In this document: positions 1,313 through 56,632 of the stretch, piece by piece
How the letters are laid out: each line of letters begins with the position of its first letter
Position numbering within the stretch: position 1 is the first letter of the stretch
DNA from: Rugalucina vietnamica
Lineage: Eukaryota; Mollusca; Bivalvia; Lucinida; Lucinidae
Direction of reading: 5' to 3'
Assembly: GCA_964017185.1 (NCBI GenBank)
Contig: OZ024876.1
Location: 1,238,001 to 1,302,000, forward strand
Length of the DNA: 64,000 nucleotides
The notes under the pieces: generated by a model
The model's input: the letters and a program-made list of their open reading frames with translations, nothing else
What the model was told of the DNA's origin: nothing
Databases searched by the model: none
Program-made: the position numbers and the translations under genes

Positions 1313-2590
1313 ACCGATTTCATTCCGCACCCATTCTTCTTTCCAATCATGTTATATGGGCCAGAATCCAACGAATGTTTCCAATTGTTTCTCTTTCTCT
1401 TCAAGAACTCTGTGGTTTCAGGTAGTGATAAAATCTTCACCACAGACTTTAAGAACTTTGCCACTTTATGTTTTGATATCTTCAGTTAGACCGATGTGAT
1501 ATTCTCACATACTGAGTAACTTTATCATGCATAAAAGAATGAAGGTAATTGTGAAACTATAAAAGATAATGTAACAGCAGTGTCACCCAGAATTGGAATT
1601 ATATAACCATCACGCAATACCTTTACGAATGCAATAATTATAGCTGACTGTGTCACAACCTGGAGGCATGCAAGGTAAGGAGCAATAGCTTTATTATTCT
1701 TTATTGTTTCTCTACATCAATGGCAGACATGTCCTTTACTGGCGATGAATGTACCATAACAATGCTTAGCCCTTGAGCCAGGTATTGAAAACATAACAGT
1801 AAAAGTGCATCTGTGTCATCTCCTTTCTGGTTTTCTCCTTTCATAATGGCTGAAACTCCTTTCTGGTTTTCAAGTGCTGTCAATACCATTTGCTGCATAA
1901 TGATGTCCCTTTCTTCATGAGTTCTTTTATATCACTCTTTTCAATGGTAATATCCTTGCAAACTTCTGAATAAACATGTTATCTTCTCCAGTAAACTTTC
2001 GACTTACAATTATGATTGTCTGCTACCATAGTTCACTAATAAATTTTATCACTTAATGTTGGTTTTCTCTCATGATCTGTACAACACTTTATGAGGACAA
2101 TTATCACATGTCTTGTGACACTGTTTGTGCTTAACTGTTTATCTTCCAAATATCAGATAAGCATCATTCGCTTTTGGTACAGTTTTCTGATAATTGATTG
2201 GAAATCATCCACACTGTCCTTTGACTGGTCATTTGTAGACCAACTCATAAAATGCCAGAGACACTTGATATAGAACAAGTGATTTACTTTTAATTTGACC
2301 CACATACACTTTTATTTGTTAGATTTTCTTCGATTTGCTTATTTAAGTATCGCCTAAATCTGCAAACCTCGAAAATGGCACTAGTGCAAACTCATGTCCT
2401 TATATATTTATGCCTTTTTGTCATATGATATTGCCTGTTGTCAAAGTACTCTAGTATAAATAAAAACGGTAGCAATTTCTTCATTGTAACCAATTGTAAG
2501 ATGGTTTATACTGCTGCTTGAATTTCTGCAACTTAAAAATTTCCTGATCTCATTAAAGCTTATCTGGTATTTGCTTTCAAACTGTCTAAG
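1313..2590. other. non-coding stretch, nothing recognised
   Basis: No domain-bearing open frame was seen. A ~24-bp stretch near 1774-1797 recurs at 8681-8704 inside a TIR element. The rest is AT-rich and unassigned. Confidence 0.5.
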
Positions 2591-2815
2591 AAGTCTTCCC
2601 GTGCATCATCCATAGGGCAGATTATATTTTCATTTAGGGCCTTAGAAATCAGTAAAGATATTCAAAGTGTTCAAAACACTCATGTTTAGAAAATACTTCT
2701 AAGCATTGTTTAAAGTATTTGACCCCGTTTTGGAATGGGTCTTTGATTTAGACTACTCGTGTAAATTTTTCGAAATTACAGTACAAAAGTCTGGCTTTCG
2801 TTGCCGGATTTAAAA

Positions 2816-2861
2816 GGGCTACTGATGAGAGGTCATTATCCGAAATAGCGCAATATAGTCC
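2816..2861 (+). ncRNA. decayed type I hammerhead ribozyme
   Basis: Stem I GGGCTA (2816-2821) pairs with TAGTCC (2856-2861) with one G-U. CTGATGA (2822-2828) and GAAA (2842-2845) are intact. U16.1-A17 falls at 2854-2855. Stem II has only one Watson-Crick pair plus a wobble, and stem III (ATAGC/GCAAT) has an A-A mismatch. The fold is recognisable but probably weak or inactive. Confidence 0.6.
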
Positions 2862-3100
2862 ATACATTCTCCCTTTGAATGTTTTTACTGCTTCAAAGGA
2901 TCAAACTTTTATATTTTATTTGCTATTACTGCAGCTGGTGTTGTACCGTGTGGCGGCCAAAAAAGTCTCCCCGTACATCATCCATAGTGCAGATTATATT
3001 TTTATTTAGGTCCTTAGAGATCAGTAAAGATATTCAAATTGTTCAAAACACTCACGTTTAGAAACATACTTCTAAGCATTGTTTAAAATATTTGAAAAAA

Positions 3101-3648
3101 AAGGTACAAGTAGGCAAAGATCAGGAAAAGGCGCAATTAGAAAGAGATTCCCACTCCAAAAACCGAGGTGGGAAAAAACAAACTAACAATCAGGCACTTA
3201 TACCATGAAACATATCGTAAGCCGAATGAGCAGCTATTTTCCCAATAGGTGGTCACTCAGTTACCTTAACTTAATTAAAAATATGAAAACATACATAAGG
3301 CGCCAACAGCACAAAAAAATTTTTAACACCAAGACATAAAACAAAAAGAACCACCACAGAAGTATCGCCTTGGAACGATCAGTAACACAACGTTTTTGGC
3401 GGGCTTAAACCGGTTTTAGAGGATCCTAACCTCACCCTCAGCTTCTGCAGTGGTTCATAACATTTGGTAAGTTCTTCGGTCCTCGCGGTGAATCTCTAAC
3501 TAGTCAATGAATCATCAAGAACAAACAAATAAATCATGATAAACATCCTGATGAATCAAAAACAAGGACTCACAGATTGAGTAAGCTGCCCGACGATGGA
3601 GATCTCTGGGCGCCGAATAACCTACTAACTCCGGAGCAAAAGAAAACC
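3101..3648 (-). mobile_element. PLE 3'-end insertion (minus) in the hammerhead array
   Basis: The sequence is the reverse complement of the PLE 3' region. It starts at the shared terminus (GGTACAAGTAGGCAAAG on the + strand) and extends through the non-coding tail to the CTCCGGAGCAAAAGAAAA block. It interrupts a hammerhead-repeat unit between ..TATTTGA and CCCCGTTTTGG. It carries no reverse transcriptase sequence. Confidence 0.8.
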
Positions 3649-3756
3649 CCCGTTTTGGAATGTGTCTTTGATTTAGACTTCTCGTTTAAATATTTCGAAA
3701 TTACAGTACAAAAGTCTTGCTTTCGTTGCCGGATTTTAAAGGGCTACTGATGAGAG

Positions 3757-4266
3757 TTACTTACTCAGTCTGTGAGTCCTGGTTTTTGATTCATCAGGAT
3801 GTTTATCATGATTTATTTGTTTGTTCTTGATGATTAATTGACTAGTTAGAGATTCACCACGAGGACCGAATAACTAACTAAATGTTATGAACCACTGCAG
3901 AAGCTGAGGATGAGGTTATGGCCATGTAAAACCGGTTTAAGCCCGCCAGTAACTTTGTGTTACTGATCGTTCCAAGTCGATACTTCTGTGGTGGTTCTTT
4001 TCGTTTCATGTCTTGGTGTTTGAATTTTTTTTTTATTTTTTTTTTGTGCTGTTGGCGCCTTATGTATGTTTTCATATTTTTAGTTAAGTTAAGGTAACTG
4101 AGTGGCCACCTATTGGGAAAATAGCTGCTCATTCGGCTTACGATATGTATGTGTTTCATGGTATAAGTACCTGATTGTTGGTTTGGTTTTTTCCCACCTC
4201 GGTTTTTGGAGTGGGAATCTTTTTTCTGATTGCGCCTTTTCCTGATCTTTGCCTACTTGTACCTTT
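3757..4266 (+). mobile_element. PLE 3'-end insertion (plus) inside a hammerhead core
   Basis: The copy starts at ACTTACTCAGTCTGTGAG and ends at the standard GTACCTTTT terminus. Left flank ..GGGCTACTGATGAGAG and right flank CATTACCCAAATTGCGC are the two halves of one hammerhead, so the insertion lies in stem-loop II. In the right half the conserved G of GAAA reads A, so this ribozyme was damaged twice. Confidence 0.8.
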
Positions 4267-4355
4267 TCATTACCCAAATTGCGCAATATAGTCCATACAT
4301 TATCCCTTTGAATGTTTTAACTGCTTCCAAAGGATCGAATATTTTATTTATTGCT

Positions 4356-15138: not shown

Positions 15139-15300
15139 AGTAAAAATTAAAACTGAGGTCCTTTAAGAGCAGTCAACACATTAATGAGAAAGGGGATGGG
15201 CCATACCGCGGTTTCGACTATTGAAGTATCGTCAGTGACCCTTTAGATTTGGCGACATGGAGCCAAAGAGAATTACTTAAATTTTGTAACTTTCAACAGG
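15139..15300 (+). repeat. direct repeat R, left copy
   Basis: About 160 bp starting TAAAAATTAAAACTGAGG, with TGGGCCATACCGCGGTTTCG inside. It recurs in the same orientation at 35366-35527. The two copies lie just outside the BEL element on either side. Confidence 0.8.
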
Positions 15301-15663
15301 GTAATCGACACAAAGACTAGTATTATCTAAATGGGACCGAATTGATTATACAATGAGTCTAGACCAACAATGAGTTCTTAGAAAATAAATCTAGACCGAC
15401 AATAAGTTTCGAAATATACTCACTGATCTCAAAGGACCAAAAGGAAAACTTTCAACAGGGTAGTCGACACAAAGACTAGTATTATCTAAATGGGACCGAA
15501 TTGATTAAACATTGGTTAGAAAATGAATCTAGACCGATCATAAGTTTCTGATTTCTCGGAATATCCTCGCTGATCTCAAAGGACCAAAAAGAAAATATAA
15601 CCTGCACTATGGATGATGTACGGGGAGACTTTTAGGGCCACCACACGGCAAAACACCATCTGC
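15289..15663. repeat. ~160-bp tandem duplication merging into a hammerhead-repeat fragment
   Basis: CTTTCAACAGGGTARTCGACA and GACTAGTATTATCTAAATGG occur at ~15289 and ~15450. The right end (15569-15663) matches the minus-strand hammerhead repeat (GATCTCAAAGGACC, CTGCACTATGGATGATGTAC, CCACACGGC) but lacks the ribozyme itself. Confidence 0.6.
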
Positions 15664-16374
15664 CGTTGTGGTGTCACGAGTTTGTGAGTTTGTATGTCAG
15701 AGCGAGTTGTCCTATTTTGTACCGGGTGTGCGAGTCCGCTAGTTATCAAAACTTATTTTCGGGTAGTCGTTATACCATTTTCCTTCTTTGCACGCGCCAA
15801 AGTTGTCAAAGTTATCAACTCTTTTTTGAAGCTGTTTTCTGGTCTAAAATTCTTTGTATATCCACCTAGATGTAAGTACTGTAATTCTGTAGTGTTCCAT
15901 CCATTATTGTATGCTATTGACATATCATTTTTACAAAATTTAAGGTGTTTTTCGATGTTCTTCTGATTCGTACCTAAAACAGTTTTCGCCTCTAGATGTT
16001 TCGTACCTCATGAAAGTTGTTATAAACGTTTTTCCTGTATGTCTGTCTACACTTTAGGTATTGTAGAATTATTTTATGATTACTTTCTGGCAATCTTTTT
16101 AAGTAAGTCTTGCAGTCGCTCAGTCCGTTTGATAGTCATGTCTGTCATTTTTGTTGTAAACCTGTATTGAAACACTGTTTTGCTGTATTTTCAGTCTTTA
16201 CCTCCTTCATCAGCTTATATCATCATCTGATTTGCACATACGACTGACACAATTAAAGTTGAAGTTAACCCACCTCTCGTCTTTATTTGTCAACCAAGTG
16301 CAAGGGGTAAACTAGCCGTAACAGTCTCCGCAGATCTAAGGCGGCATAGTAAAGAATCTAGACGATAGAATTCC
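15664..16374 (+). repeat. probable 5' LTR / leader of the BEL element
   Basis: Non-coding stretch directly upstream of BEL gag. Its last ~60 bp (16289-16349, GTCAACCAAGTGCAAGGGG to GGCGGCATAG) recur at 35297-35357, downstream of BEL pol. Only that terminal part is shared, so either the 3' LTR is largely deleted or the LTR boundaries differ from my guess. A TGGATTGGAGGCCGG stretch at 16375 could be a primer-binding site; no tRNA was identified. Confidence 0.4.

Positions 16375-31842: not shown

Positions 31843-31878
<36 letters not shown>
31501..31878 (+). mobile_element. LINE-type 3' end with (ATT)n tail
   Basis: About 340 bp of non-coding sequence, AATAAAG at ~31836, then 11-12 ATT units up to the point where BEL pol resumes. 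Simple-repeat tails like this are common in CR1/RTE/Jockey-type LINEs. There is no coding sequence to assign a clade. Confidence 0.55.
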
Positions 31879-31879
<1 letters not shown>

Positions 31880-34800
31880 GGGCCAAAATTCTTGATTCAA
31901 GCTTAAAGTCAAATTCTCTCAAGAGAAGTCATTTTGTTACTTTCATGAAGGAAATCCTGGATAGTGGCCATGCGGAGAGAGCTCCACCTTTAAGTAGCAC
32001 AGAGGAGTGTTGGTATCTTCTATTGTTTGGAGTCTATCATCCGAAGAAGCCGGACCAAATCAGAGGTGTGTTTGATGCGTCTGCGAAATATCAATGTGTT
32101 TCCTTAAATGATGTGTTATTATCTGGACCAGATCTTACAAACAGTCTGTTAGGAGTTCTGATTCGTTTCAGAAAGGAGCCTGTCGCTATGACAGCTGATA
32201 TAAAGAAGATGTTTTACTGTTTCTTAGTCAGTGAAAACCATAGAAATTTCTTAAGGTTCTTCTGGTACCTAGATAATGACCCTGACAGTGAACTTGTGGA
32301 ATACCGTATGCGGGTGCATGTCTTCGGGAATAGCCCGTCGCCTGCAGTTGCGTCTTATGGCTTACGCAAGATAGCGGATAGAAGCAAAGAGGATTTTGGT
32401 ATTGATGTTCAGGAATTCATTTCAAATGACTTTTACGTAGACGATGGTTTGACGTCAACACCCACCGTCGACACTGCAGTCAGTCTAATGAAAAGGACAC
32501 AACAGGCTTTCCAAGAAAATGGCAATATCAGACTTCACAAGATAGCTTCTAACAGCAAGGAAGTCATGAGTTCCTTTCCATCTGAAGACTTGGCAAAAGA
32601 TCTCGCTGTTCTACACCTGAACAAAGATGTTTTACCTTTGCAGCGCTCTTTAGGATTGAACTGGAACCTACAGACGGATGTCTTTACATTTTGTGTGTCT
32701 GATGAAATGAAACCGTATACTCGCCGTGGTGTGCTTTCTACGGTAAATAGTATATATGACCCAATAGGATTTGTGGCTCCAGTGAGTGTTACAGGGAAGC
32801 TTTTTCTACGAGAACTTGTTACAGGAACTATTGACTGGGACGCCCCTTTGCCTGAAGACTGTAGGAATGATTGGGAGTCTTGGAGAGATTCTCTCATCCT
32901 TTTAGAGAAGATGAAGATTCCAAGGTCGTATTTCGGTGTAGCACTAAGTGATATATCTAGACTTGAGTTACATATATATTCTGATGCTTCAGAAAAAGCT
33001 ATTGCCGCAGCTGCCTACTGTGTTGGATATAGAGGTGAAATGATTCTTTCTAAGAGCTTGGTCATGGGAAAAGCTAAAGTTGCTCCAAAGAATGGACACA
33101 CCATTCCTAGATTAGAGTTATGTGCGGCAGTTCTTGCCACAGAGATATATGACACTGTGTTAACCGAAAGTGGTTTGAGTTTTCATGAAACTTTCTTTTA
33201 CTCTGACAGCAGAGTTGTGCTTGGTTACATACAAAATAAGACTCGTAGATTTTATACGTATGTAAGTAACAGAGTGGACAAGATTTTGAGGCTTACAAAG
33301 CCAGAGCAGTGGCTTTATATCAATACTGCTGACAACCCAGCAGACTGTGCTACTCGGCCAGGTCAAGTTACAAACCTCATGGACAGTATGTGGATACATG
33401 GGCCAAGTAACATACAGGTACACGACAAGGATCAGATAAAGTCTTTCTCTCTCATTGATCCCGACGTGGACAAGGAAATACGCCCAGTGATCAACACCCT
33501 TGACACTTCTGTATTGAAACCCTCCTTAGGTTCTCAGCGGTTTGAGAGATTCTCCTCCTGGCAACATCTTGTCCGTGCAATGGAAAATCTGTTACATATT
33601 TGTTTGTCATTTAAACATGTGAATGATTCGGATTGCAGAGGTTGGCATATGTGCAAAGGTGCTAAGGATATCAGGAATAAGATGCAGGCTGAGCAGCTTG
33701 TTATCCGTACTGTACAGTCAGAAGTGTACGAAGAGGAAATGTGTGCTTTGCTTCAATCCAAGCAAGTTTCAAAGAAGAGTTCTCTGTTAGAGTTGAATCC
33801 TATTCTAGATGACAGTGGATTGCTCCGAAATGGTGGGCGTTTGAAACATGCACAGGTTCCCACGAACGAAAAACATCCTGTGATAATCCCAAAGAACAGT
33901 CACTTAGCAGTTTTGCTTATTCGTTATTATCATGAAAAAGTACGGCATCAGGGTCGTCATTTTACAGAGGGCGCAGTGAGGTTAGCAGGATACTGGATCA
34001 TATGCTGTAAGCGTCTGGTGTGTTCCACTATTCAAAAATGTGTTAAGTGCAGGAAACTGCGACAGGATGTATCAAGTCAAAAGATGTCTGACCTTCCCGC
34101 TGACCGTGTCCAGCCAGCACCCCCATTCACATTTGTCGGAGTCGACACATTTGGACCATGGGAAGTTACAGCTAGACGTACCAGAGGGGGCTATGCGAAC
34201 AGTAAAAGATGGGCTATCCTCTTTACATGCCTCACCTCCAGAGCCGTACACATAGAAGTTACTGAAGAACTTAGCTCATCAGCATTTATCAATGCTTTTC
34301 GTCGTTTCCTGGCAATACGAAATGATGTCAAGGAGATCCGGTCAGACCAAGGAACTAACTTTGTGGGTGCAACCACTGATCTAGGCATTGATGTTGTGAA
34401 AGTTGGAGTGGATCCTGTACAGACTTTCTTGCACGACAAAGGAATTTTGTGGACTTTCAATCCTCCTCATTCCTCACACATGGGCGGAGTGTGGGAGCGA
34501 ATGATTGGTGTGACAAGAAGAATCTTGGATTCTATGTTGGGTGATTTGAACACTACGCATTTGACCCATGAAGTATTAACCACATTCATGGCTGAAGTTA
34601 GTGCCATAATAAATGCTAGACCACTAGTACCCATTTCAAGTGATCCTGACTGTCCAGAAATTCTTACCCCAGCCATGTTATTAACTCAGAAATGTTCTAC
34701 CCCTGTTCAGTACAACTATCAACATGTAAGTCCTAAAGTTCAGTGGAAATATGTTCAAGCCCTATCTGACACATTTTGGAAACGTTGGCGTACAGAGTAC

Positions 34801-35049
34801 TTGCAAACTCTCCAAAATAGGCGTAAATGGCAGGCTGATGTACCCAATCTTAAACCTGGGGATGTTGTACTACTTAAAGACTGTTCTGTTCATCGTAACA
34901 ATTGGCCTATGGGTGTGATTACCAGAGTGTTTCCAAGTGAGGATGGTAGAGTAAGAAAGGCTGAAGTCAGGGTAGTGAGTCGTGAGAGTGGATGCTCTTT
35001 ATTCGTTCGTCCGATATCTCAATTGATTTTGCTGGTATCAGAAACCTAA
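31879..35049 (+). CDS. pol: BEL/Pao pol: RT, RNase H, integrase
   Basis: Open for over 1050 codons from the insertion junction; the first ATG is at 31945. Numbered from that ATG: RT with GVFDASAKYQ, MTADIKKMFY and the catalytic FYVDD at ~162-166. RNase H follows with YSDASEKA (~345) and HTIPRLELCAAVLA. Integrase H2C2 domain lies at ~662 (HEKVRHQGRHF..CVKCRKL). Integrase D-D-E are at ~732 (GVDTFGPW), ~800 (SDQGTNF) and ~848 (GVWERMIG). A DUF5641-like C-terminus (RRKWQADVPNLKPGDVVLLK) closes it. It would copy and integrate the element. Only the RT N-terminus is missing, cut off by the insert at 29716-31878. Long intact frame: the element was active not long ago. Confidence 0.9.
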
Positions 35050-35296: not shown

Positions 35297-35527
35297 GTCA
35301 ACCAAGTGCAAGGGGTAAACTAGCCGTAACAGTCTCCGCAGATCTAAGGCGGCATAGCCGTAACTCCGAATAAAAATTAAAACTGAGATCCTTTAAGAGC
35401 AGTGAACACATTAATGAGAAAGGGGATGGGCCATACCGCGGTTTCGACTATTAAAGTCTCGTCAGTGACCCTTTAGATTTGGCGACATAGAGTCAAAGAG
35501 AATTACTGAAATTTTGTAACTTTCAAC
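35297..35527 (+). repeat. 60-bp LTR-like end followed by direct repeat R
   Basis: 35297-35357 matches the end of the BEL 5' LTR candidate (16289-16349). Six bases to a few bases later repeat R starts (35366-35527), matching 15139-15300 with a handful of differences. On the left side of BEL the order is R, ~1 kb, then the 60-bp end; here the 60-bp end precedes R. Confidence 0.7.
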
Positions 35528-35716: not shown

Positions 35717-37935
35717 GTGAAATGGCACACCATTTCCCTTCAATACCGAGCAGTATTACATACCGAATCTAATCACATTAGAAGTTTTATTAAAATTCCT
35801 TTCATCAATAAAGGAATTGACTTTATTGATTTACCAAGCATATTCCAGGATAAATCAGTGATACAGTCTATACCTACCTACTTCCAAAATTCAGAACCTC
35901 CTATTATTTGTTACAAATATAACAAACCAATCAGAAATACAATTTTTAATTTCAATAAACTTGTTTCTGATCTTGATATCCATGCTAATACTCCTAAGTC
36001 TTGAGATTGTAAAGATTCAAAATATGTTTATCAACCCGCTGGACATATTGTTACTGGAAATTTAAAAATAATTTCGGATTCTAGAATTCGCAAAATTGTT
36101 TCTAAAGGTCCGAAATATAGATTCCCTTCCTACATTAATTTCGACAAATGTAGAGAGGAGATTTCATCTGCATTAAATGATTTCGGTAATCGATGGTGTA
36201 AACGAGAGGGTGTTGAGGATAATGCTCTTAAAGAATGGAAAAGAAGTATCTTCACTATCGTGGATAAACGTATTAAGTTTTATTCACAAAATACTAATCT
36301 TTTACCTCCTAAACCCAAATCGTCATTTAGGCATTTGAAGCAGGGTATCCAAGAATTTCATAGAAAGTATGTCTTGGTTCCGGCAGATAAAGCCGCAAAC
36401 AATATTGTTGTCGTTTGTAGGCTTCACTACGTTTACACCTTAAAACAGGAGCTTGATGGTACCAGGGCTTATCTGGAGACAGATACTGATGAGGTGTCTG
36501 TAGTTAATGCCCACTTAAACGATTTACCTGTTAAGTTTTCTGTTTGTGTCAATGAAGGCCAAGACAAACTTCCTACGATGTATTGGTTACCTAAGCTTCA
36601 CAAAAGACCATACAAAGCTAGATTTATTGCAAATTCTAGCTCTTGTACTACCACTGAACTTTCTAAATTATTAACTTCCTGTCTTACTGCTATCAAATCT
36701 CATGTTATAAGATACTGTGAGACAGTGTATGAAACTTCTAATAAAAATTGGTTTTGGTCAATTAAAAATTCTGGTGAGGTGCTCAGTAAATTGAAGTGTA
36801 GAGGGTTCCGTGCGACAAGCTTGTCCACATATGATTTTTCTACTCTGTATACAACATTACCACATAATCTAATAAAAGAAAAACTTCTGGATTTGATAGA
36901 GTGGACCTTCAAAAGGGCATTAAAAAACTATGGTTCACTTTATTTGGCATGTAATGACAGAAAGGCTTTTTTCACTTTTCACTTCCTCTGACCAAAGTCG
37001 GTATACACTTTGGTCATGTCAGAATGTATGCGACGCCTTATCCTATCTCCTTGATAATATTTATATTAGATTTGGGACCAAGTTATACAGACAAATTGTT
37101 GGAATTCCGATGGGTACAAATTGCGCACCTCTAGTAGCTGATTTATTTTTATACTGCTACGAAAGAGATTTCATGGATTCTCTTAACCATGATAATCAAG
37201 CTGATGTTATCGAGGCTTTTAATTCCACATCTAGGTACCTCGATGACCTTTTGAACATTGACAACCCTTATTTTGAAGGTATGGTCAATCAAATTTATCC
37301 ACCTGAACTTCAGTTGAACAAAGCCAATATCTCAATATACCGAAGCCCCCTTTTTAGATCTATATCTTTCTGTTGCAAATGGATTTGTTTCTTCTAAAAT
37401 TTATGATAAGCGCGATGACTTTGATTTTGATATAGTAAATTTTCCTTTTTTGGATGGTGACGTTCCTCGTCGTGCTTCTTATGGTGTATACATTTCGCAA
37501 CTTATTAGGTTTGCTAGAGTCTGCAATCATGTTACAGACTTCAACGCTCGAAATAAATGTTTAACGGCAAAACTTCTCCAACAGGACTATCGGTATCATA
37601 AGCTTCGAAAAACATTTTCTAAATTTTATCGTAGACACTATGAATTGATTTCCAAATATAATGTTGGGTTAAAGACGCTTTTAAGTGAGGGCCTTTCGGA
37701 ACCTGAATTTTATGGTGACTTGGTTTATAAATTTAAGAAACTTAAAGGAATTAATGATTTTTCTTTTCAGTTCAGAAAAATCATAACACGTTACAGACGT
37801 ATAGGTTATAACTTGAATGTTATGCGACAGTCTGCATGCTTAGTTTTTAACCCAATCATGGTTGATAGCTATGCTGCCTTCTTTAATTGCACGCCGGTGG
37901 GTCGGGCGTCAGACTGTATGATGGCCCCGACATAA
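35717..37935 (+). pseudogene. PLE reverse transcriptase, one stop and two frameshifts
   Basis: Blocks in order: N-terminal FIKIPFINKGIDFIDLPSIF; an in-frame TGA at 36002-36004; YVLVPADKAANNIVVVC; YWLPKLHK (~36585), the signature of Penelope-type RTs; STYDFSTLYTTLPH (first catalytic Asp); a frameshift near 36970; QIVGIPMGTNCAPLVADLF; RYLDD (37232-37246); a one-base insertion near 37336 (CAATATACC where other copies have CAGATACC); then the common C-terminal part to MMAPT at 37935. No GIY-YIG endonuclease follows; the frame simply stops. The enzyme would prime and copy the element RNA at the insertion site. This copy is dead. Family call rests on LPKLHK and YLDD; another minor RT clade is possible. 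Confidence 0.7.
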
Positions 37936-38562
37936 AGCTATTCATTTTAGTTGGTTGGGGCCGGAGCTTCTTGTCTGTTGCTTGGTCCACCGGGGTCCAA
38001 CTGGTGTTTTTCTTTTGCTCCGGAGTTAGTAGGTTATTCGGCGCCCAGGGATCTCCATCGTCGGGCAGCTTACTCAGTCTGTGAGTCCTGGTTTTTGATT
38101 CATCAGGATGTTTATCATGATTTATTTGTTTGTTCTTGATGATTCATTGACTAGTTAGAGATTCACCACGAGGACCGAATAACTAACTAAATGTTATGAA
38201 CCACTGCAGAAGCTGAGGGTGAGGTTATGGCCATGTAAAACCGGTTTAAGCCCGCCAGTAACTTCGTGTTACTGATCGTTCCAAGTCGATACTTCTGTGG
38301 TGGTTCTTTTTGTTTTATGTCTTGGTGTATATATAAAAAAAAATTTTTTGTGCTGTTGGCGCCATATGTATGTTTTCATATTTTTAGTTAAGTTAAGGTA
38401 ACTGAGTGGCCACCTATTGGGAAAATAGCTGCTCATTCGGCTTACGATATGTTTCATGGTATAAGTTCCTGATTGTTAGTTTGGTTTTTTCCCACCTCGG
38501 TTTTTGGAGTGGGAATCTTTTTCTGATTGCGCCTTTTCCTGATCTTTGCCTACTTGTACCTC
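35717..38562 (+). mobile_element. Penelope-like element, longest copy
   Basis: About 2.2 kb of coding sequence followed by the ~620-bp tail common to all copies, ending CTACTTGTACCT. There is no poly-A and no clear terminal repeat. It is the only copy with the full RT. At least ten further copies in this window are 5'-truncated to different points, as expected of target-primed insertion. Confidence 0.8.
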
Positions 38563-39110
38563 TTTACATAACCAATTTTATTGGGCCGTGGAATATTGAC
38601 CCTCTAAACGGTTAACTATTGCTCCTGTGGTCAGGTATTTAGCAGCTCTGTGCGGGAGACATCTTGTGACCCATCAGTTTCTTAAAGCCCTGATGCTGGA
38701 AGGCAATCCAAATATACCCATTCAGTCGCAAACAACCATAGCTGTAAATGTGACGCTAACCGTCGAATCAAACAAAGCAAGCTACATTATTGACCTCTCT
38801 AGCACCCTCTAAAACTCATTCTAACTCATTATTGTTTGTATTGTATTGCCAATTGTATTTATCAACTTATTTATTTGAAATTAAGGAGATTAAGAAGCAT
38901 AGTCATCATCAAGTGTTCCTCTTTGTTCTCATACAACACCCTTATTTGGACGCTGATACTGACCAGTCAGAATTCAGCACCGGAATATCTTACTGGTACT
39001 GGAGACTTGTTCTCCAAAATTGACAGAAACGTAGTCTGCTGCAATTACGATAGTACAATATTGGCTAGGAGTTATTACTCTGTTGTATTATTTCAGAGAT
39101 TTCACGTTTA
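38563..39110. other. non-coding stretch, nothing recognised
   Basis: Short open frames (38627-39111) carry no domain. AT-rich sequence. Confidence 0.45.
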
Positions 39111-39390
39111 GAAACATTCTAAGCAATGTTTAATATTCTAATATAATATTCTAATGTTTGATATTCTAAGCAATGTTTAAATAATTCAACCCCGTTAAAA
39201 ATATATCTTTTATTTAGACTTCTCGTGTAACGTTTCGAAATTGCAGTACAATAGTCTGGCTTTTGTTGCCGGTTTTAAAAGAGCTACTGATGACGATTTA
39301 TTACCCGAAATTGCGCAATATACTATCTCCCTTTGATTTTTTTTTACTTTTTCCAAAGGATGAAACCTTTATATTTTATTGATGGTTCGT
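39111..39390 (+). repeat. decayed hammerhead-repeat copy
   Basis: Diverged single unit: AACCCCGTTAAAAATATATC, CGTTTCGAAATTGCAGTACA, TTGCCGGTTTTAAAAGAGCT, then a hammerhead core CTGATGA..CCCGAAATTGCGCAATA (39286-39320). The 3' strand of stem I is deleted or changed (TACTAT instead of TAGTCC), so self-cleavage is unlikely. Confidence 0.65.
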
Positions 39391-41638: not shown

Positions 41639-41711
41639 TGGCTCGGTAGCTCAGTGGTAGAGTGATCGCACGGTCAGCGAGAGACCCTGGGCTCGTATCC
41701 CGGTCGGGTCA
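41639..41711 (+). repeat. tRNA-like module 2 (SINE-type head)
   Basis: 73 nt that fold as a tRNA: 5' TGGCTCG against 3' CGGGTCA, a good A box (TAGCTCAGTGGTAGAG), a CTGGG/CCCGG T-arm, and a 4-bp anticodon stem with loop ACGGTCA. The T loop (CTCGTAT) and U33 are not canonical, so a functional tRNA is unlikely. Confidence 0.6.
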
Positions 41712-42448: not shown

Positions 42449-43427
42449 CAAAATTTGATTTGAAATTTTGGGTACAAATGGAGTCCATATTGCAATTGCC
42501 TCATCGAATCTCATAGGGCGATCCATAAAGAAGCAATCTGTGTGCAAATTGATTTCCAGAATCTCTCAGGGGACGCATGCATAACCGTTTTTACCAATCA
42601 GATTCTAGCTCAGTGACCCATGCCCAGAAATCTAAAACTTTTGTAACATTTTTATTCATTGGTAATTGCTGACCATTATATGTCGGTCAGAACGTCATAC
42701 GTTACATTAAAATGCGAAAAACATGCAATAACCGTGTTGCGTTATATGTTTGGCTCAGTATATTTGTTCACATCATGAAAACATTGAAAATTTGACGTTT
42801 AGTATGGGCATTCCATTGAACACAATAGAAAATGAAGTTAGTGAAAATTTCTAACGGCGAATGTTTTTAACGAAACCTTCATTCGGCATTGTTAGAAAAC
42901 ATTACAGCGTCCAATTGTTGGGACAGGAACGTCTGTAGCAAATGTTAAAATGTGAGTAAACTTGAATGGTTGGGAGTAAAAATGAGTCTTCAACTCTGTT
43001 TAAATTGAGCAAAATTGACCCTTTGACTGTAAAATTATTCATTGTCTAAAATAGGGCAGGGGTAACCCTGAAAAACCAACAGTAATTTCTAGGGTATGAA
43101 TACACGTCACATGTCGCGTTCTGGAAAATCACAATGCATTTGATTTTTTGCCAAGACCCTACCTCTGAAAAATAACTAATTTCATGAGACGCATAACGCA
43201 GAATGTTAAAAACAAGATCTTATGAGATGTGTCGATCATCTGGCAATCTTATTCAGTGGAGGAAAAGTTTATTTGATACTGTTCTTGTGTACAACAATAA
43301 AAATAAACCGATGTTGCGTTATAAGTTTGGCTCAGTATAAAATCGACTCATCTGCGTTTTAGGTTTTACTGCTATGACGTATTTATTACATTTGTTTTAT
43401 ATTCAAATATGTTGCTTATTTCAATGA
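42449..43427. other. non-coding stretch with a ~25-bp direct repeat
   Basis: GTTGCGTTATATGTTTGGCT (42737) and GTTGCGTTATAAGTTTGGCT (43313), each continuing CAGTATA, are about 575 bp apart in the same orientation. No coding was seen. Confidence 0.45.
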
Positions 43428-43486
43428 ATAAAATATAAAGGTTTGATCCTTTGGAAGCAATACGAACATTCAAAGGGAGATAGTAT

Positions 43487-43532
43487 GGACTATATTGCGC
43501 AATTTCGGGTAATGAATCCTCATCAGTAGCCC
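43487..43532 (-). ncRNA. hammerhead ribozyme, unit 1
   Basis: Minus strand: stem I GGGCTA/TAGTCC (6 pairs, one G-U), CTGATGA at 43526-43520, stem II GGAT..ACCC (3 of 4 pairs; A-C at the third), GAAA at 43506-43503, palindromic stem III ATTGCGCAAT without a loop, cleavage after A17 at 43493. All core bases are present. The loopless self-complementary stem III suggests action as a dimer. Confidence 0.85.
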
Positions 43533-43861
43533 TTTTAATACCGGCGACGAAAGCCAGATTATTGTACTGTAATTTCGAAAATTTACACGAGAAGTCTAAA
43601 TCAAAGACACCTTCCTAAACCGGGGTCAAATAATTTAAACATTGCTTAGAAGTATGTTTCTAAACTTGAATGTTTTGAACTCTTTAAATATCTTTACTGA
43701 TCTCAAAGGACCTAAATAAAAATATAATCTGCACTATGGATGATGTACGGGGAGACTTTTTACGGCCGCCACACGGCACAACACCAGCTGCAGTAATAGC
43801 AAATAAAATATAAAGGTTTGATCCTTTGGAAGCAATACGAACATTCAAAGGGAGATAGTAT

Positions 43862-43907
43862 GGACTATATTGCGCAATTTTGGGTAATGAACTCTCATCA
43901 GTAGCCC
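43862..43907 (-). ncRNA. hammerhead ribozyme, unit 2 (core mutated)
   Basis: Same fold, but the minus strand reads ACCCAAAATTG where unit 1 has ACCCGAAATTG: the invariant G12 is A. Stem II is GAGT..ACCC with A-C at the second pair. Predicted inactive. Confidence 0.75.
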
Positions 43908-44236
43908 TTTTAAAACCGGCGACGAAAGCCAGATTATTGTACTGTAATTTCGAAAATTTACACAAGAAGTCTAAATCAAAGACACCTTCCTAAACCGGGG
44001 TCAAATAATTTAAACATTGCTTAGAAGTATGTTTCAAAACTTGAATGTTTTGAACTCTTTAAATATCTTTACTGATCTCAAAGGACCTAAATAAAAATAT
44101 AATCTGCACTATGGATGATGTACGGGGAGACTTTTTACGGCCGCCACACGGCACAACACCAGCTGCAGTAATAGCAAATAAAATATAAAGGTTTGATCCT
44201 TTGGAAGCAATACGAACATTCAAAGGGAGATAGTAT

Positions 44237-44282
44237 GGACTATATTGCGCAATTTCGGGTAATGAACTCTCATCAGTAGCCC
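44237..44282 (-). ncRNA. hammerhead ribozyme, unit 3
   Basis: Complete core: GGGCTA, CTGATGA, GAGT..ACCC, GAAA, ATTGCGCAAT, A, TAGTCC. One A-C mismatch at the second pair of stem II. Confidence 0.85.
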
Positions 44283-44611
44283 TTTTAAAACCGGCGACGA
44301 AAGCCAGATTATTGTACTGTAATTTCGAAAATTTACACGAGAAGTCTAAATCAAAGACACCTTCCTAAACCGGGGTCAAATAATTTAAACATTGCTTAGA
44401 AGTATGTTTCTAAACTTGAATGTTTTGAACTCTTTAAATATCTTTACTGATCTCAAAAGACCTAAATAAAAATATAATCTGCACTATGGATGATGTACGG
44501 GGAGACTTTTTACGGCCGCCACACGGCACAACACCAGCTGCAGTAATAGCAAATAAAATATAAAGGTTTGATCCTTTGGAAGCAATACGAACATGCAAAG
44601 GGAGATAGTAT

Positions 44612-44657
44612 GGACTATATTGCGAAATTTCGGGTAATGAACTCTCATCAGTAGCCC
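44612..44657 (-). ncRNA. hammerhead ribozyme, unit 4 (stem III changed)
   Basis: Core CTGATGA and GAAA are intact, but the stem III palindrome reads ATTTCGCAAT instead of ATTGCGCAAT, which breaks its self-complementarity. Confidence 0.75.
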
Positions 44658-44951
44658 TTTTAAAACCGGCGACGAAAGCCAGATTATTGTACTGTAATTT
44701 CGAAAATTTACACGAGAAGTCTAAATCAAAGACACCTTCCTAAACCGGGGTCAAATAATTTAAACATTGCTTAGAAGTATGTTTCTAAACTTGAATGTTT
44801 TGAACTCTTTAAATATCTTTACTGATCTCAAAAGACCTAAATAAAAATATAATCTGCACTATGGATGATGTACGGGGAGACTTTTTACGGCCGCCACACG
44901 GCACAACACCAGCTGCAGTAACAGCAAATAAAATATAAAGGTTTGATCCTT

Positions 44952-45639: not shown

Positions 45640-48544
45640 ACCCCAGTGCAGGGGCAGATGAAGCCATTGGGCCGTTTTCTTTTGTCAGAATAATCAATAT
45701 TCTGTCCATTTGCCAATTTCTTGCTGGCTTTTCCCTTCAAATGGCATTTAAACAGTTTTCCTCATTCAAATGCATGGGCAACCCATGTTGACCTTGCCAT
45801 AAACTTGGTCAAGGTCATCACAGGGTAATGATTTATATATACATTGTAGTAGTTTAGCCATGTATGATTCACGCCAAGTTTCATTGAAATCAATCCAACG
45901 GTTTTAGAGAAGAAGATATTTGAAGGGTTTTTACCATATATGGACATGGCGGCCATCTTGGTCATGTGACCTAGATCATTAATATACACATTGGTTTCCC
46001 TATCCTATAGATGCCTCACACAAAATTTGGCTTCAATTGGTTAAGTGGTTTCAGATGAGAAGATGTTTGAATATTATGGTAATATACATGTATATTGCCC
46101 CGGGTGTGGACATATGAGCCCTTGGGTTCATTTTTTTTTTCAGAATCATTAATATTTAGTCCTAATACCCATTTCCTGCAAGATTTTCAACTCAAATGAC
46201 TTTTTCAAAAGTTTTCCCCATTCCAATGCATTGGCGACCTATGTTGACCTTGTCGTAAATTAGGTCAAGGTCACCACAAGGTCATGATTTATATACACAG
46301 TGTAGTACTTCAGCCATTGGTGCTTCATGCCAAGTTTCTTTGAAATCTCTCCACCAGATTCGGAACAGAAGATTTTTGAAGGGTTTTTAGCTCGCCTGCG
46401 CGAAGTGCACAGGTCTATTGTTGTCACCTCGGTCGTCCGCGTTTACGTGTACGTCCGCGTCCGCGTCCGCGTCACACTTTCGGTCAAAGTTTTTAAAATT
46501 GTTATATCTTGATAGTCACTGACCACAAATCATTCATATGTGGAACATTGCTGCATATGAGGGTCCTCTGTGATTTAGTGTGAAGGGACCCGTGAGGTCA
46601 TGCCTGGGGGCGGGGCTAGAGGTCAATATCTAGAACACCTTTGTACAATGCTCAGATGCTGTGTTAGTTTCTCATCAACTGTAAAGCCTAGAACTGTCAA
46701 ACCTTACATAAGGCTTCTCCTCGATGTCCCGACTTGGCATCCACATTGACCTACTGACCTTGACCTATATTTCATGCTCCAGTGACTTTGTCATTTTTGA
46801 AGCCAACCCTTAATATCTCATCAACTATAAAGCCTACAACCATCAAACCTTGCATATGGCTTCTCCTTGATGTCTCGACTCGGCACGCACATTGACCTAC
46901 TAACCTTGACCTATATTTCATGCTCCATTGACTTTGTCATTTTTGAAGCCAACTCTTAATATCTCGTCAACTATAAAGCCTACAACCATCAAACCTTGCA
47001 TATGGCTTCTCCTTGATGTCCCGACTCGGCACCCACATTCGCCTAGTGACCTTGACCATTTCATGCTCCAGTGACTTTGTCATTTTTGAAGCCAACCCTT
47101 AATATCTCATCAACTATAAAGCCTACAACCATCAAACCTTGCATATGGCTTCTCCTTGATGTCTCGACTCGGCACGCACATTGACCTACTAACCTTGACC
47201 TATATTTCGTGCTCTAGTGACTTTGTCATTTTTGAAGCCAACCCTTAATATCTCATCAACTATAAAGCCTACAACCATCAAACTTTGCATATGGCTTCTC
47301 CTTGATATCCCGACTCGGCACCCACATTGACCTACTGACCCTGACCTATATTTCATGCTCCAGTGACTTTGTCATTTTTTAAGCCAACCCTTAATATCTC
47401 ATCAACTATAAAGCCTACAACCATCAAACCTTGCATATGGCTTCTCCTCGATGTCCCGACTCTGCACCCACTTTGATCTAGTGACCTTGACCTATATTTC
47501 GTGCTCTAGTGACTTTTTTATTAAAGTTTTTAGAAGTCTATATCTCTTGAACATGTTGATGGATCAATTTGATACTTTGCATGTTGGTAGATATTGGTCT
47601 GAAGTTTTATGCAGTACCATCATGACCTACCCTGAGTAAACTTGAGGTCAAGGTCATGGCCTTAGAAATTTTTTGTTAAAGTTTTCGGTTAAACTTTGCA
47701 TGTTTGTGGATATTGGTCTGACATTTTATGCTGTACCATCACAACCCACCTGAGTGACCTTGAGGTCAAGGTCATGGGTCATAGATTTTGATAAATTTAG
47801 TGGCAAAGCACAAGTCAGGCGAGCTACGCTATCCTGCGACAGCTCTTATTACCATATATGGGCATGACAGCAATCTTGGTCATGTGAACTAGATAATTTA
47901 TATGTACATTAATTCCCCCATTCCATAGGTGCTTCACATACAATTTGGCTTTGATTCGCCAAGCGGTTTCAGAGGAGAAGACGTTTGAATATTATGGTAA
48001 TATACATGTATATTGCCCCGGGGTGGGGGCAGATGAGCCCCTGGGGTCCATTTTTTTTTCAAAATCATTAATATTCAGTCCTACTGCCCATTTCCTGCAA
48101 GACTTTTACTTTAAATGACATTTTAAAAGTTATCCCTATTCAAATGCATTGACGACCTATGTTGACCTTGCCATAAAAAAAGGTCAACGTCATCTCAGGG
48201 TCATGATTTATATACACATTGTAGTACATGAGCCATCAACGCTTCATGCCAAGTTTCTTTGAAAACGATCCACCGGTTCTGGAGAAGAATATTTTTGAAG
48301 GGTTTTTTCCAAAATATGGGCATGGCAGCCATCTTGGTCATGTGACCTGGATTTATTATACACACATTGATTCCCCCTTCCTATAGATGCTTCATATAAA
48401 ATTTGGCTTTGATTGGCTAAGCGGTTTCAGAGAAGAAGATCTTTGAAATTGTGGACGGACGGACGGACGACGTACGGACGGACGGACGCCGGATCATGGC
48501 CATCCTATAAGCTCACCTTGTGAGCCTAACGGCTCAGGTGAGCT
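45640..48544 (+). repeat. dispersed-repeat block, ~460-bp units with (GGAC)n end
   Basis: Units starting at CCCCRG-GCAGATGA-like blocks (~45643, ~46096, ~48016 after removing an inner element) share GACCTATGTTGACCTTG, CATGCCAAGTTTC and GCCATCTTGGTCATGTGACC. It ends in (GGAC)n at 48454-48488 and a hairpin AGCTCACCT..AGGTGAGCT (48510-48544). The style is common in bivalve genomes. No coding was seen. Confidence 0.6.
46389..47846 (+). mobile_element. inner element with 146-bp tandem repeats
   Basis: Starts AGCTCGCCTGCGCGAAG and ends CAGGCGAGCTACGCTATCCTG, i.e. inverted AGCTCGCCTG termini. It interrupts the surrounding repeat between TTTTTGAAGGGTTTTT and ACCATATATGGGCATG. About six tandem units fill 46640-47520: TGACTTTG recurs at 46783, 46929, 47072, 47218, 47364 and 47510 (146, 143, 146, 146, 146 bp). 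Confidence 0.65.
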
Positions 48545-50522: not shown

Positions 50523-53500
50523 CTACTTCATTCTGAAAACATTTCTACATAATCTATCACTAACTTGTTTTTTGCTATATCTTCCACTTTCTATTTCTAA
50601 CTTGTGTGCACTAATTCTTAATTTTGTGAGAGCTTGTTGATGGTTACGGTCTTTTACAATATCTAAATAAATCTCTTTTTGAAACAATGACTTGAAATTA
50701 TAGAAAGTCCTTAATTTCCCCTTTTTGATTATCGCTTCATCTTGCAATTTATTATACCACAATTCTTTATACATATTTTTCAATGAAAATTTCCCTTTAT
50801 TACAATTTGTTTCATCTACATTTATTTCTTTGAGAATAGTATTTACACCTAAAAACCATGACTTGTCGCCTGATTGATGCAGTTTCTTACTAACAAGTAA
50901 AGTTTGACCAACTAAGGAGTCTTCGCTTTTCTGACACGCATAAAAATAATATTTCAATATATTATTACAAAAATCAACATATATTGGAAATCTACCTAGT
51001 TCGCCAACACAAGCTATGTTAGAAGCTTTAGAATGTACACCCAATACATATTTACAGAATTTTGTATGCAGTTTTTCCCCATGCATATTCTGGTAAATCT
51101 TATCAAGAATATTGTCTACTGACCGTACATTCTTACTCATTGAAGCCCAAATCTCGCTCCCATAGGTTAATATTGGTTTGATGGTATGATCAAATATGTG
51201 AAAGGCAATGGAAGAATTTGGATAAGTAGAGCCGAAAACACTTTTCAGTTTGAATATACCTTTGAGTGCTTTCTTGTATAACTCTGAAGAAGCAACTGAA
51301 AATGATCCAGAAATACAAAATATAACTCCTAGATACTTATATTCTCGCACGTTTTCCAACGTCTCACCATTGTATTTAAATTCGTAATTATACAATTTAC
51401 CTGCTTTGTTAAAGATCAATACTTTTGTTTTATCCAAATTAACATCCAGACACCAATCAGTACAGTAATTTTCAAGTTTGTTTAAACAGTTCTGCAGACC
51501 TGTTTCATTTTGTGACAGTAATATGACATCATCAGCATACAATAAACAATTCAAATGATATGTACCAATATCAACACCATGACAAGTATTATCAAAAATA
51601 TCAGGCAAATCGTTTATAAAAATTTTGAATAAATCGGGGCTCAGTGTATCACCTTGCCTGACCCCAATGTTGAACAAGAAAGATTGTGTCAGACCGTTAT
51701 GCATTTTAACACTTAGGTAATTACCAACATACATATCTTTGATAACATTGTAAAAATTTCCAGCGATTCCAATTTTTATTAACTTATATAGCATAATATC
51801 ATGAATAACTGTATCAAATGCTTTGCGAAAGTCTATGAAGCATGCAAACAATTTACCACTTTTATCTTTTGTATATTTTTCAATTAGAGTTCTTAAAACA
51901 AACATGTGATCAGCAGTACGAGCTTTCTTTGTAAAACCTATCTGAACCGGATTAATTAGGGAATTATCTTGTAAAAAGTTGTCTAAGCGCTTTGTAAGTA
52001 TGACATTGAATAATTTTGCAGCACAAGAAAGAATTGAAATCCCCCTATAATTATTAGGGTTATCAGAGGTCCCGCCTTTATGGATTGGAGAAAGATATGC
52101 TTTCTTCCATTGAGAAGGATATGATCCATTAGTAAGGATAGAGTTAAAAAGTTTCAACAAACAATTCTTTAAGTGCGAAAATCCGCATTTAAGCATTTCA
52201 TTTGAAATACTATCAAGACCTACGGCTTTATTGTTTTTTAGGCAAACTATCGCCGCTTGGAGTTCTTGAGGCGAAATTTGAAAATCCAGATTGGAAAATG
52301 TTTTCAGCTTTTCCTCATGAGTCAATAAATCAGAAATTTCATCAACTCTAGGTTTGAACTTCTCTTGTAAAGTATTTAAACTGGAGAAATGGTCAACCCA
52401 TTCATCAGGTGATATCTGTGGTTCAGCATTAGACTTATCTTCGCTTTTTAAATCCTCTAAAAGTTTCCAGTAAGCTTTTGGGTCGTTCTCGTGAAGTCGT
52501 TCTAATTTTTCAATTACATGCCCCTTATATTCTTTACGCTTCCTTTTACAAGACTTGACATACAACTTCCTAAATTTATAGTATGATCCACGTATAAACG
52601 GATCGCTCGGATACTTGGCATATAAATGCCCCTTCTGATCAAGATATCTGCGCATTTTATAAAGCTCAGTGTCGTACCACTTTTTAGAAGATTTATTATT
52701 CTTAGAACTTTTCTTAACTTTTTTACGAAGTGAAAAATCAGCAGTTGCAATAATGATATTTTCAAGTTTATCGACCAAAATTTCTGTCGAAGAACTGGCA
52801 TCTAAGTTTTCGAAATCCTTGATTTTTTGTTTAATTGCACAAGAACACAGGGCATCTTTAAAACTTTCCGAAGAAGTCTCAGTCCATTTATATTTTGCGG
52901 GAAAAGGCAACAAATTCGATGACTTACATTGTATTGAATAATTGGCCATTATTTTACAACTTATTTTTGAATGATCAGACAATCTCGATCTATTAAGACC
53001 GACATTGAAATACAAAACTTGAGATAATAAATTTTCAGATGCCATCATGTAATCAACTACGCTATTTCCGTTATATTTATACGATGTAAACATTCCTTGA
53101 GTGTCACCAAACGTTCTGCCATTAAGAATGCGCATTTGGCTTTCTATACAAAAATCTAATAGATCCCGCCCTCTTGCATCAATGTGTTTGTCTTGGCTAT
53201 TACGACATTCTAAAAAGGTATCCTGCAAATATTTTTCGGACAGCGGAATATACGACGAATCGTCATTTTGAATAAAATCAAGCTCATTGTGGCCAGTCCT
53301 GGCATTCAAATCACCACAAATAAGTATTTGACCGTTTTTGCTATACTGTGACATATCAACGTTGACTTGTTCAAATAAATCACTATCGTTAGAACAATTT
53401 ACATTATAGGTAGAATTCCTTGGAAAAAAATATACGCAGCAAATATAAATATCATATGCAAAGCCAAAAAAGTCTTTGTTAAGAAGAAACCATTGGTACT

Positions 53501-53780
53501 CTGATGACGTGTTTTGCAAAAACTTAACTCCTTGTCTTAACTCATTCTTAACTAAAATTGCTAAACCACCGTGTACATGACCTTTTCTTGTCTGCTTTCT
53601 TTGCACAATATGAGATCGATAACCTTCAAAACTTATATTGTCCATATTACACTTAATCTCAGATAAACAGACAATGTCAAAACATGAAATTTCCTTCAAA
53701 AACAGATTATCTTGTGACTTATCAAACAATTTGGATTTTAGACAGTTTATATTCCAATAGGCTAAATTAACAGAAGTTTC
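50523..53780 (-). CDS. LINE A ORF2: endonuclease and reverse transcriptase
   Basis: Open from 53780 to the stop at 50523 without interruption. The natural start is unclear: the frame opens right after a TGA, has no ATG before the endonuclease (next ATG ~53645), and begins 21 nt after the ORF1 stop, so re-initiation is possible. APE-type endonuclease: AYWNINCLKSKL, FDIVCLSEIK, LICGDLNARTG, SRLSDHSKI. RT: NYRGISILSCAAKLFN, ACFIDFRKAFDT, GVRQGDTLSPDLF, LLYADDVILL (YADD near 51540). The ~300-residue C-terminus has no recognised domain. It resembles CR1/Jockey-group LINEs; clade not certain. It would nick DNA and copy the LINE RNA in place. Confidence 0.88.
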   Translation of the reverse strand, partial: ETSVNLAYWNINCLKSKLFDKSQDNLFLKEISCFDIVCLSEIKCNMDNISFEGYRSHIVQRKQTRKGHVHGGLAILVKNELRQGVKFLQNTSSEYQWFLLNKDFFGFAYDIYICCVYFFPRNSTYNVNCSNDSDLFEQVNVDMSQYSKNGQILICGDLNARTGHNELDFIQNDDSSYIPLSEKYLQDTFLECRNSQDKHIDARGRDLLDFCIESQMRILNGRTFGDTQGMFTSYKYNGNSVVDYMMASENLLSQVLYFNVGLNRSRLSDHSKISCKIMANYSIQCKSSNLLPFPAKYKWTETSSESFKDALCSCAIKQKIKDFENLDASSSTEILVDKLENIIIATADFSLRKKVKKSSKNNKSSKKWYDTELYKMRRYLDQKGHLYAKYPSDPFIRGSYYKFRKLYVKSCKRKRKEYKGHVIEKLERLHENDPKAYWKLLEDLKSEDKSNAEPQISPDEWVDHFSSLNTLQEKFKPRVDEISDLLTHEEKLKTFSNLDFQISPQELQAAIVCLKNNKAVGLDSISNEMLKCGFSHLKNCLLKLFNSILTNGSYPSQWKKAYLSPIHKGGTSDNPNNYRGISILSCAAKLFNVILTKRLDNFLQDNSLINPVQIGFTKKARTADHMFVLRTLIEKYTKDKSGKLFACFIDFRKAFDTVIHDIMLYKLIKIGIAGNFYNVIKDMYVGNYLSVKMHNGLTQSFLFNIGVRQGDTLSPDLFKIFINDLPDIFDNTCHGVDIGTYHLNCLLYADDVILLSQNETGLQNCLNKLENYCTDWCLDVNLDKTKVLIFNKAGKLYNYEFKYNGETLENVREYKYLGVIFCISGSFSVASSELYKKALKGIFKLKSVFGSTYPNSSIAFHIFDHTIKPILTYGSEIWASMSKNVRSVDNILDKIYQNMHGEKLHTKFCKYVLGVHSKASNIACVGELGRFPIYVDFCNNILKYYFYACQKSEDSLVGQTLLVSKKLHQSGDKSWFLGVNTILKEINVDETNCNKGKFSLKNMYKELWYNKLQDEAIIKKGKLRTFYNFKSLFQKEIYLDIVKDRNHQQALTKLRISAHKLEIESGRYSKKQVSDRLCRNVFRMK

Positions 53781-53801
53781 TCATCGTCTTTAGTCCACTA
53801 C

Positions 53802-54722: not shown

Positions 54723-55562
54723 CAGTAACGAATCATCGGCCCGTGAAGCATGCGATTTTTTTTATTTACGTCACCGTGACGTAACGTAACAGTTCGAGCG
54801 AAACTTGGAGGCGGTCCGTAGTGCAACGGGAAGCTAGTGAATAGCCCGGCAAACTAGGGATCTTCCACTGCTGCGTTTGATCACGGTCGTCTCACGTCTC
54901 GTCCCGTTTCCTACGGAATACTCAACACGTTTTGTTGCGTAAAGTTACGGTGCGTTACGGTCTTTGACGGTGTTCACCCTGTTCTACTACGTATGTCACG
55001 TTATGTTACGGTTATCACGGCGCGTGAAGTTTATAGATATAAAATGGCATACGATGGGGACAAATTCCTTCATATTGGAGCAGTCACTATAGTGAACAAT
55101 AGAGACCATACGCTGCACTATGCAAATGAAGAGGAAATACAATCCCGAACTTAATCAACTCTGCCGTCGGTTGTTGAGGAGCGCGGTTGTTATAATTTCA
55201 AAGGACGTTTTCGTATACAAAAGGAAAAAAAAGTGCTTGATATTGTATGGTGTCTACGTTTTGTCCGTAGCTGACCTTGACAGAACGAAAAAAACGTGTT
55301 ACGCCTTGGTCAGCATGCAACTGACCGCATAAGAAAGTAACAGGCCGTAATAGAACGTGCTAATGATCGTGATACATCGTGGATAACCGTAACGTACATG
55401 AGCGCCTTCGTGACACACCGGCTTATCACTACCACGGCTTGTTACGGATATCGTAATACAATGTAAGAAAACTAAATGTATTACCAAAAATCCACGGCAC
55501 GCTACGTTTCTAGCAAACGGGGCTGCCGGGGCCGCCGGGAACATAGTGTAAACGCAGTATTA

Positions 55563-56560: not shown

Positions 56561-56632
56561 ATGCGACACAGAAATGCATCGTGGAAGAATGAGACCGATG
56601 AATCAGTAAAATAAAATAGCAAATATTACGAT

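Follow-up and report, generated by a model that had tools for sequence, protein, structure and literature searches.

The tandem array at 43427..44951 (minus strand) is probably a copy of a non-coding animal retrozyme, the RNA circle of which would have been reverse-transcribed from a fixed internal start, most likely by a Penelope-like enzyme. The array lies in a stretch of 64,000 nucleotides from the bivalve Rugalucina vietnamica, here called the window. At stake are the enzyme that moves animal retrozymes and the question whether the circle is really the template.

The array, assigned to family A, consists of four 375-bp units starting at 43427, 43802, 44177 and 44552, followed by 25 bp; the RNA sense is the minus strand. 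Tandem Repeats Finder presented a period of 375 with 4.1 copies and 98 % matches, and a repeat search yielded spacings of 375, 375 and 375 before a fifth piece of 25 nt. The two analyses agree on the four-unit periodicity reported in the first-pass annotation; of its span, 43428..44951, the end was retained and the start was placed one base earlier. The units had been described as near-identical; pairwise they differ in 3 to 7 of 375 bases. Variants are shared in a nested manner along 43427-44926, one in units 2-4 and another in units 3-4. One round of copying would not be expected to leave this pattern, which hints at exchange or duplication after the insertion. The unit has a low GC content (0.365). 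No long open frame runs through it, and neither a reverse transcriptase gene nor an endonuclease gene was present in the unit; a stop-free run of 101 codons on the RNA strand had a length reached by 13 of 500 shuffles and is shorter, 47-67 codons, in three family C units. An LTR structure was not seen in the array.

Each unit carries on the minus strand the parts of a hammerhead ribozyme: stem I GGGCUA/UAGUCC, CUGAUGA, stem II, GAAA (AAAA in unit 2), a short stem III, UA and the predicted cut. The order of the parts claimed in the first-pass annotation was thus found in all four units, their integrity was unequal. In unit 1 (43487..43532, minus strand, predicted cut 43492/43493) the core is intact and the third stem II pair is lost; the hammerhead reads GGATTCATTACCC followed by GAAA. 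Unit 2 (43862..43907, minus strand, cut site 43867/43868) is predicted to be inactive, with AAAA in place of GAAA. Unit 3 (44237..44282, minus strand, predicted cut 44242/44243) has an intact core with an A-C mismatch in stem II and reads GAGTTCATTACCC followed by GAAA, while unit 4 (44612..44657, minus strand, predicted cut 44617/44618) combines a stem II mismatch with a changed loop III, TTTCGCAA. The majority stem II over 69 aligned copies, a number that includes the array of locus L005 twice (the second time as L033), is GGGU-UCAUU-ACCC. Since the family majority is GGGT/ACCC in the DNA and the window units have GGA (unit 1) or GAG (units 2-4), stem II is weakened in all four of them. The array of the window has thus decayed to some extent and is not a clean source.

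A strict scan for an exact CTGATGA core with a stem II of at least 2 bp and a stem I of at least 5 bp found unit 1 alone in the window, and 300 dinucleotide shuffles of the 64 kb gave 2 matches. A covariance-model match above threshold, which the first-pass annotation had proposed as a check and the absence of which it would count as a refutation, failed to appear: with the Rfam models no hammerhead in the window attained the gathering score, the best match being RAGATH-1-hammerhead with 21.2 bits against a cut-off of 56.3. Nor did four other family A loci yield a hammerhead match, even with E values up to 5 admitted. The same models found no match in four Penelope-like loci, all four of which have hammerhead-like motifs detected by pattern; the Rfam models thus seem not to cover such hammerheads, and their failure says little on the family A hammerhead. 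Single-strand folding of the window units did not form the hammerhead. A single majority sequence reaches -11.0 in a fold that contains stems II and I and is slightly better than the exact hammerhead, which scores -8.3. Two majority copies folded together form stem II and a shared stem III of 10 bp, stem I is not formed; in window units the shared stem III appears as well, but stem II is missing. Compared to 100 shuffles per strand, the circle folds better than shuffled sequences on the RNA strand (z -2.1), which is not the case on the other strand (z +1.3).

The predicted hammerhead motif of three related families is supported by helices that change in step. Eight sites sharing unit positions 344-375 were fetched, among them members of families B and C, and 17 hammerheads (14 distinct) of families A, B and C were aligned. 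In this alignment 96.4 % of the cells are paired, a value reached by none of 500 shuffles, and 29 sequence-pair cells have changed on both sides and are still paired, again reached by 0 of 500, where cells count sequences rather than events and kinship among the sequences can beat shuffles. The covariation score was likewise reached by no shuffle of 500, and slid structures gave at most 8 cells changed on both sides. Other measures discriminated less: 5 of 12 pairs have changed on both sides, equalled by 58 of 500 shuffles, and the number of pair types was reached by all 500. A fold predicted from the alignment alone recovers the same three helices less one pair. Within family A alone change in step was not found, and shuffles do equally well. 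Between families A and C the hammerhead stretch (0.92-0.96 in unit positions 76-100) is conserved to about the same degree as the domain at unit positions 298-375. A variant common to at least five arrays occurs at 1 of 46 hammerhead positions versus 31 of 329 positions elsewhere in the unit (one-sided P 0.07, or 0.016 without N7, with arrays that are not independent). The sole hammerhead position with such a variant is N7 in CUGANGA, a site that is free to vary. The frequency of variants in the hammerhead is not lower than elsewhere in the unit. A hammerhead model built from 38 family A copies matched ten places in the window, where its own members match by construction, and a related hammerhead in locus L062.

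Additional copies of the families lie in the window. A second family A array of about 2.9 units at 2587..4349, with the plus strand as RNA sense, is split by two Naiad-like insertions. An old family A copy at 39164..39380 (plus strand) spans positions 225 to 1 and ends at the same fixed end as the other family A copies. The family B copy at 15141..15666 (minus strand) comprises a hammerhead (15179-15252) and a partial conserved domain, and a family B fragment of tail and hammerhead at 35369..35482 (minus strand) starts, as read by eye, at the homologous fixed end.

The manner of insertion was deduced from genome copies. A search of the genome (1.09 Gb, 47 contigs) for unit positions 1-32, with up to 3 mismatches allowed, counted 6801 copies, against 0 for the backward control; among the matches listed, family A was present on 15 contigs and additionally on contig C1. 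From near the head of this list 40 exact sites were sampled in list order, not by similarity; all are on contig C1, and 35 had a left flank. Selection by an exact match to positions 1-32 passes over old copies and those that end before position 32. Unrelated DNA adjoins position 1 exactly in 31 of the 35 sites, and the other four are unit-unit junctions. Of the 35 pieces in another set, ordered by similarity, 26 begin at position 4 or less. The mirror check on eight sites chosen by positions 344-375 found AATAAAA next in all eight. Positions 344-375 occur more often (10141 times) than positions 1-32, at first sight a contradiction of the proposed mechanism; that families B and C share the 344-375 end may explain the surplus. 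The opposite end is ragged: 29 of 31 sites were measurable and extend over 60 to 539 nt, five of them beyond one unit, while two run past the fetched stretch. For L066 the far end was taken as 115, since 712 arises from bridging a gap, and two measurements disagree for L080 (539 vs 518), L078 and L069. The 31 include L084, to which the copy at 39164-39380 in the window is paralogous. Many copies in the genome are shorter than two units. Target-primed reverse transcription typically leaves such a pair of ends, one fixed and one ragged.

The fixed end lies 66 nt 3' of the predicted hammerhead cut, hence copying did not begin at the 3' end made by the ribozyme. The tail between predicted cut and fixed end (unit positions 1-66, in the first unit 43427..43492, minus strand) contains a hairpin AAAGG/CCUUU, as seen by eye, and has the same layout in every unit. 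None of 38 insertions ends at 65-67, the predicted cut, thus the insertions carry no footprint of a self-cleaved template; a cluster of ends at 69-80 was considered as such a footprint and rejected, as it was not significant after correction for scanning (P 0.19). Target duplications of at least 5 bp were absent from 26 arrays, with a shuffled mean of 1.0. Three insertions into Naiad-like copies were compared by eye with uninterrupted copies and had duplications of 0, 3 and 0 bp. Both insertions without a duplication have a short microhomology at the ragged end, and the one with 3 bp also carries a few filler bases (all read by eye). A Helitron-type insertion was rejected because fixed flanking bases are missing. 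The flanks of the copies are only mildly AT-rich.

Multi-unit insertions indicate what was copied. Among 49 units with more than 94 % identity over at least 100 positions, two units of the same array diverge on average by 1.5 % (31 pairs) and two units of different arrays by 3.4 % (1111 pairs). In four arrays (L007, L010, L015 and L028) nearly all variants are common to every unit. That these copies of more than one unit carry the same private variants throughout suggests repeated reading of one unit, hence the template would be a circle. The units are not near-identical in this sense in the window array, L016, L020, L025, L026 and L035.

A conserved domain at unit positions 298-375 (in the first unit 43724..43801, minus strand) is located directly 3' of the start of reverse transcription in the RNA circle and is well conserved among the three families. 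The identity at 344-375 in the eight fetched loci exists by construction, since the loci were chosen by those positions; free of this bias are only positions 298-343 and the family B copy of the window. In the eight loci 42 to 46 of 46 bases match at positions 298-343, and 35 to 44 of 46-47 match at positions 251-297 of these bait-chosen loci. The window family B copy matches in 42 of 45 bases at 298-343 versus 36 of 47 at 251-297. Alternatively, the domain could be a promoter.

For the proposed cycle, a multi-unit transcript across the array would be cut by the hammerheads into pieces of 375 nt, which a host ligase would probably circularize; ligation in vitro has been shown for other animal retrozymes, according to excerpts of PMC7229834. 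A reverse transcriptase, most likely of the Penelope-like type, may then bind the conserved domain, nick chromosomal DNA and begin synthesis at a constant internal position, which lies 66 nt 3' of the predicted cut. Copying would proceed once or several times around the same circle, as supported by the lengths and the shared variants, and would stop anywhere, leaving the ragged end; the other end would be joined with no or a short target duplication, as in the three Naiad sites. The step from circle to re-insertion by a borrowed reverse transcriptase, suggested in the first-pass annotation, gains genomic support from these copies, while the enzyme itself is one we infer, since no sequence in common with the unit was found at 30 Penelope-like loci. 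It is a tentative generalization, to which we give slightly less than even weight, that a Penelope-like enzyme copies animal retrozymes around the RNA circle while binding a domain 3' of the fixed internal start. The genomic copies would in that case record rolling-circle reverse transcription, because the domain is kept only if the template is circular. That a primed circRNA gives tandem cDNA, with Penelope-like elements as strong candidates, has already been proposed in PMC7229834, as far as the excerpts go. Titles and abstract openings of the retrozyme papers found by literature searches report no fixed start for animal retrozymes, and the excerpted review PMC7761336 states that metazoan repeats show no motif helping to deduce the autonomous partner. 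A fixed start with a conserved domain would be such a signature of the autonomous partner, open to checking in other animal genomes that contain retrozymes and, with a single enzyme and a small RNA, in vitro.

Which enzyme copied the element, and from which template, can be read differently. The same element may have been copied by a LINE (non-LTR) enzyme, a reading that is unlikely and still deserves some weight. Target-primed insertion with ragged 5' ends is a LINE trait too, frames judged by eye as LINE-like occur in the window (50523-53780 and 57534-61347), and no sequence shared with the unit was found in the Penelope-like loci compared; against this enzyme speak the lack of an A tail or simple-repeat tail at the fixed end (by eye) and the conserved domain 3' of the start, which would be absent from a linear RNA ending at the start. 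For the template, a linear multi-unit transcript with its 3' end at position 1 would yield the same fixed start as a circle, and mixed units in some arrays agree with it. The Penelope-like enzyme of PMC11167929 used unprocessed RNA in vitro without a need for hammerhead cleavage, according to the excerpted text. We consider a linear template quite unlikely, as the private variants that recur in every unit of several arrays suggest repeated copying of one unit and as such a template would lack the domain conserved 3' of the start.

Two further readings dispense with the retrozyme. The unit may be the terminal repeat of a Penelope-like element and the array a fragment thereof, since hammerheads are found in such elements, the copies of which can be arranged in tandem or inverted (PMC3846280 and PMC11167929, in excerpts). 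An inverted pair of unit arrays was indeed found at L014 885-2013 / L035 6396-7524, which are one locus; the two arrays are probably separate insertions because their divergence differs (85-91 % vs 97-98 % identity to the majority sequence). Multi-unit arrays that repeat the unit only, the lack of a long frame through the unit and of a sequence match to the 30 Penelope-like loci render the terminal repeat improbable. The tandem and non-coding character and the signs of exchange between the window units would also suit an ordinary satellite with an incidental hammerhead, which unequal crossing-over or re-insertion of DNA circles had spread. A random starting phase is expected from such a satellite, yet position 1 is the start in 31 of 35 sites, and the hammerhead helices change in step across families; this origin is very improbable. 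The retrozyme copied from a circle by a Penelope-like enzyme is the reading we prefer.

Penelope-like elements occur in the genome. At least 150 GIY-YIG matches exceeded the cut-off, with 150 of 451 candidates scored, and some of these elements stand in tandem with open frames of 964 codons. Reverse transcriptase and GIY-YIG were located in one frame in all four frames tested, with one RVT_1 score 0.1 bit under the cut-off. Tandem elements with 964-codon frames and a period of about 3.9 kb were observed at C15:425918-437860 and elsewhere (L036-L065), their sequences suggesting recent activity. In two groups of these elements hammerhead-like motifs were seen by eye, followed by a tail of about 41 nt in one (2 copies) and 77 nt in the other (3 copies). 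When the 30 Penelope-like loci were compared with the unit, the sole matches in sequence were a piece of family B lying within L062 and a stretch of 17 nt with E 0.36. The hammerhead model, applied to 24 of these loci, detected nothing but the L062 piece and a single match at chance level.

The window itself is rich in other elements. The frames 4845-5689, 9585-10413, 30136-31501, 36005-38566 and 63150-64000 resemble by eye a Penelope-type reverse transcriptase; RVT_1 matched only at E 0.09, below the cut-off. Several are followed by SECIS elements (four Rfam matches, 5622, 9770, 30851 and 37910), and we take these frames to be probably Naiad-type elements coding a selenoprotein. Naiad-like copies are dense in the window, and most share an end near 38560-38570. 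Naiad-like sequence adjoins the unit near position 225; the Naiad-like element was rejected as a partner, as it sits inside units as nested insertions and has its own shared end. Long open frames at 18675-24301 (minus), 27289-35049 (plus), 50523-54761 (minus) and 56615-61347 (plus) resemble by eye Gypsy, BEL and two LINE elements. Another tandem array at 46670-47516 has a period of 146 or 289 bp, with 5.8 copies of the 146-bp unit, and a 359-bp unit occurs at 14313-15038 in two copies with 94 % matches. A tRNA-like Rfam match at 41640-41711 (37.8 bits) is possibly part of a SINE.

Among known systems, plant LTR retrozymes are alike in being non-autonomous with RNA circles processed by hammerheads (excerpts of PMC7229834 and PMC7761336; also PMC4918200), but have type III hammerheads, long terminal repeats, a primer-binding site and 4-bp duplications in the excerpts of the former two. 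Penelope-like elements with hammerheads share with family A the hammerhead followed by a short tail, a fixed internal start, tandem copies and no or short duplications. In the excerpts of PMC11167929 a lizard element initiates internally 111-118 nt into the ORF, its hammerhead cuts at +26 and the needed RNA extends to +172, with start and target lacking homology. The distance from cut to start computed from these values is 85-92 nt, compared to 66 nt in the unit. Unlike these elements, the unit lacks a reverse transcriptase or endonuclease gene and similarity to the 30 loci, and the surroundings of the insertions differ: several Penelope-like copies run into TA repeats, which in L051 begin about 10 nt after the cut (by eye), unlike the retrozyme flanks. 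The closest likeness is to the animal non-LTR retrozymes of PMC7229834, described in its excerpts as short tandem non-coding repeats of low GC with a type I hammerhead motif and variable multimers, about 150-450 bp long and from dimers up, with mussel units of 350-390 bp. The first-pass annotation had assigned the array to this class, and the 375-bp non-coding tandem units, their low GC, thousands of copies and signatures of retroposition fit the assignment; a type I motif with an open stem I is present in the sequence of each unit, with a broken core in unit 2. Target duplications of animal retrozymes, when present, are longer than 4 bp in the excerpted paper, whereas none of at least 5 bp was found in 26 family A arrays. 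Family A adds to that description a fixed internal start, a ragged far end and a conserved domain.
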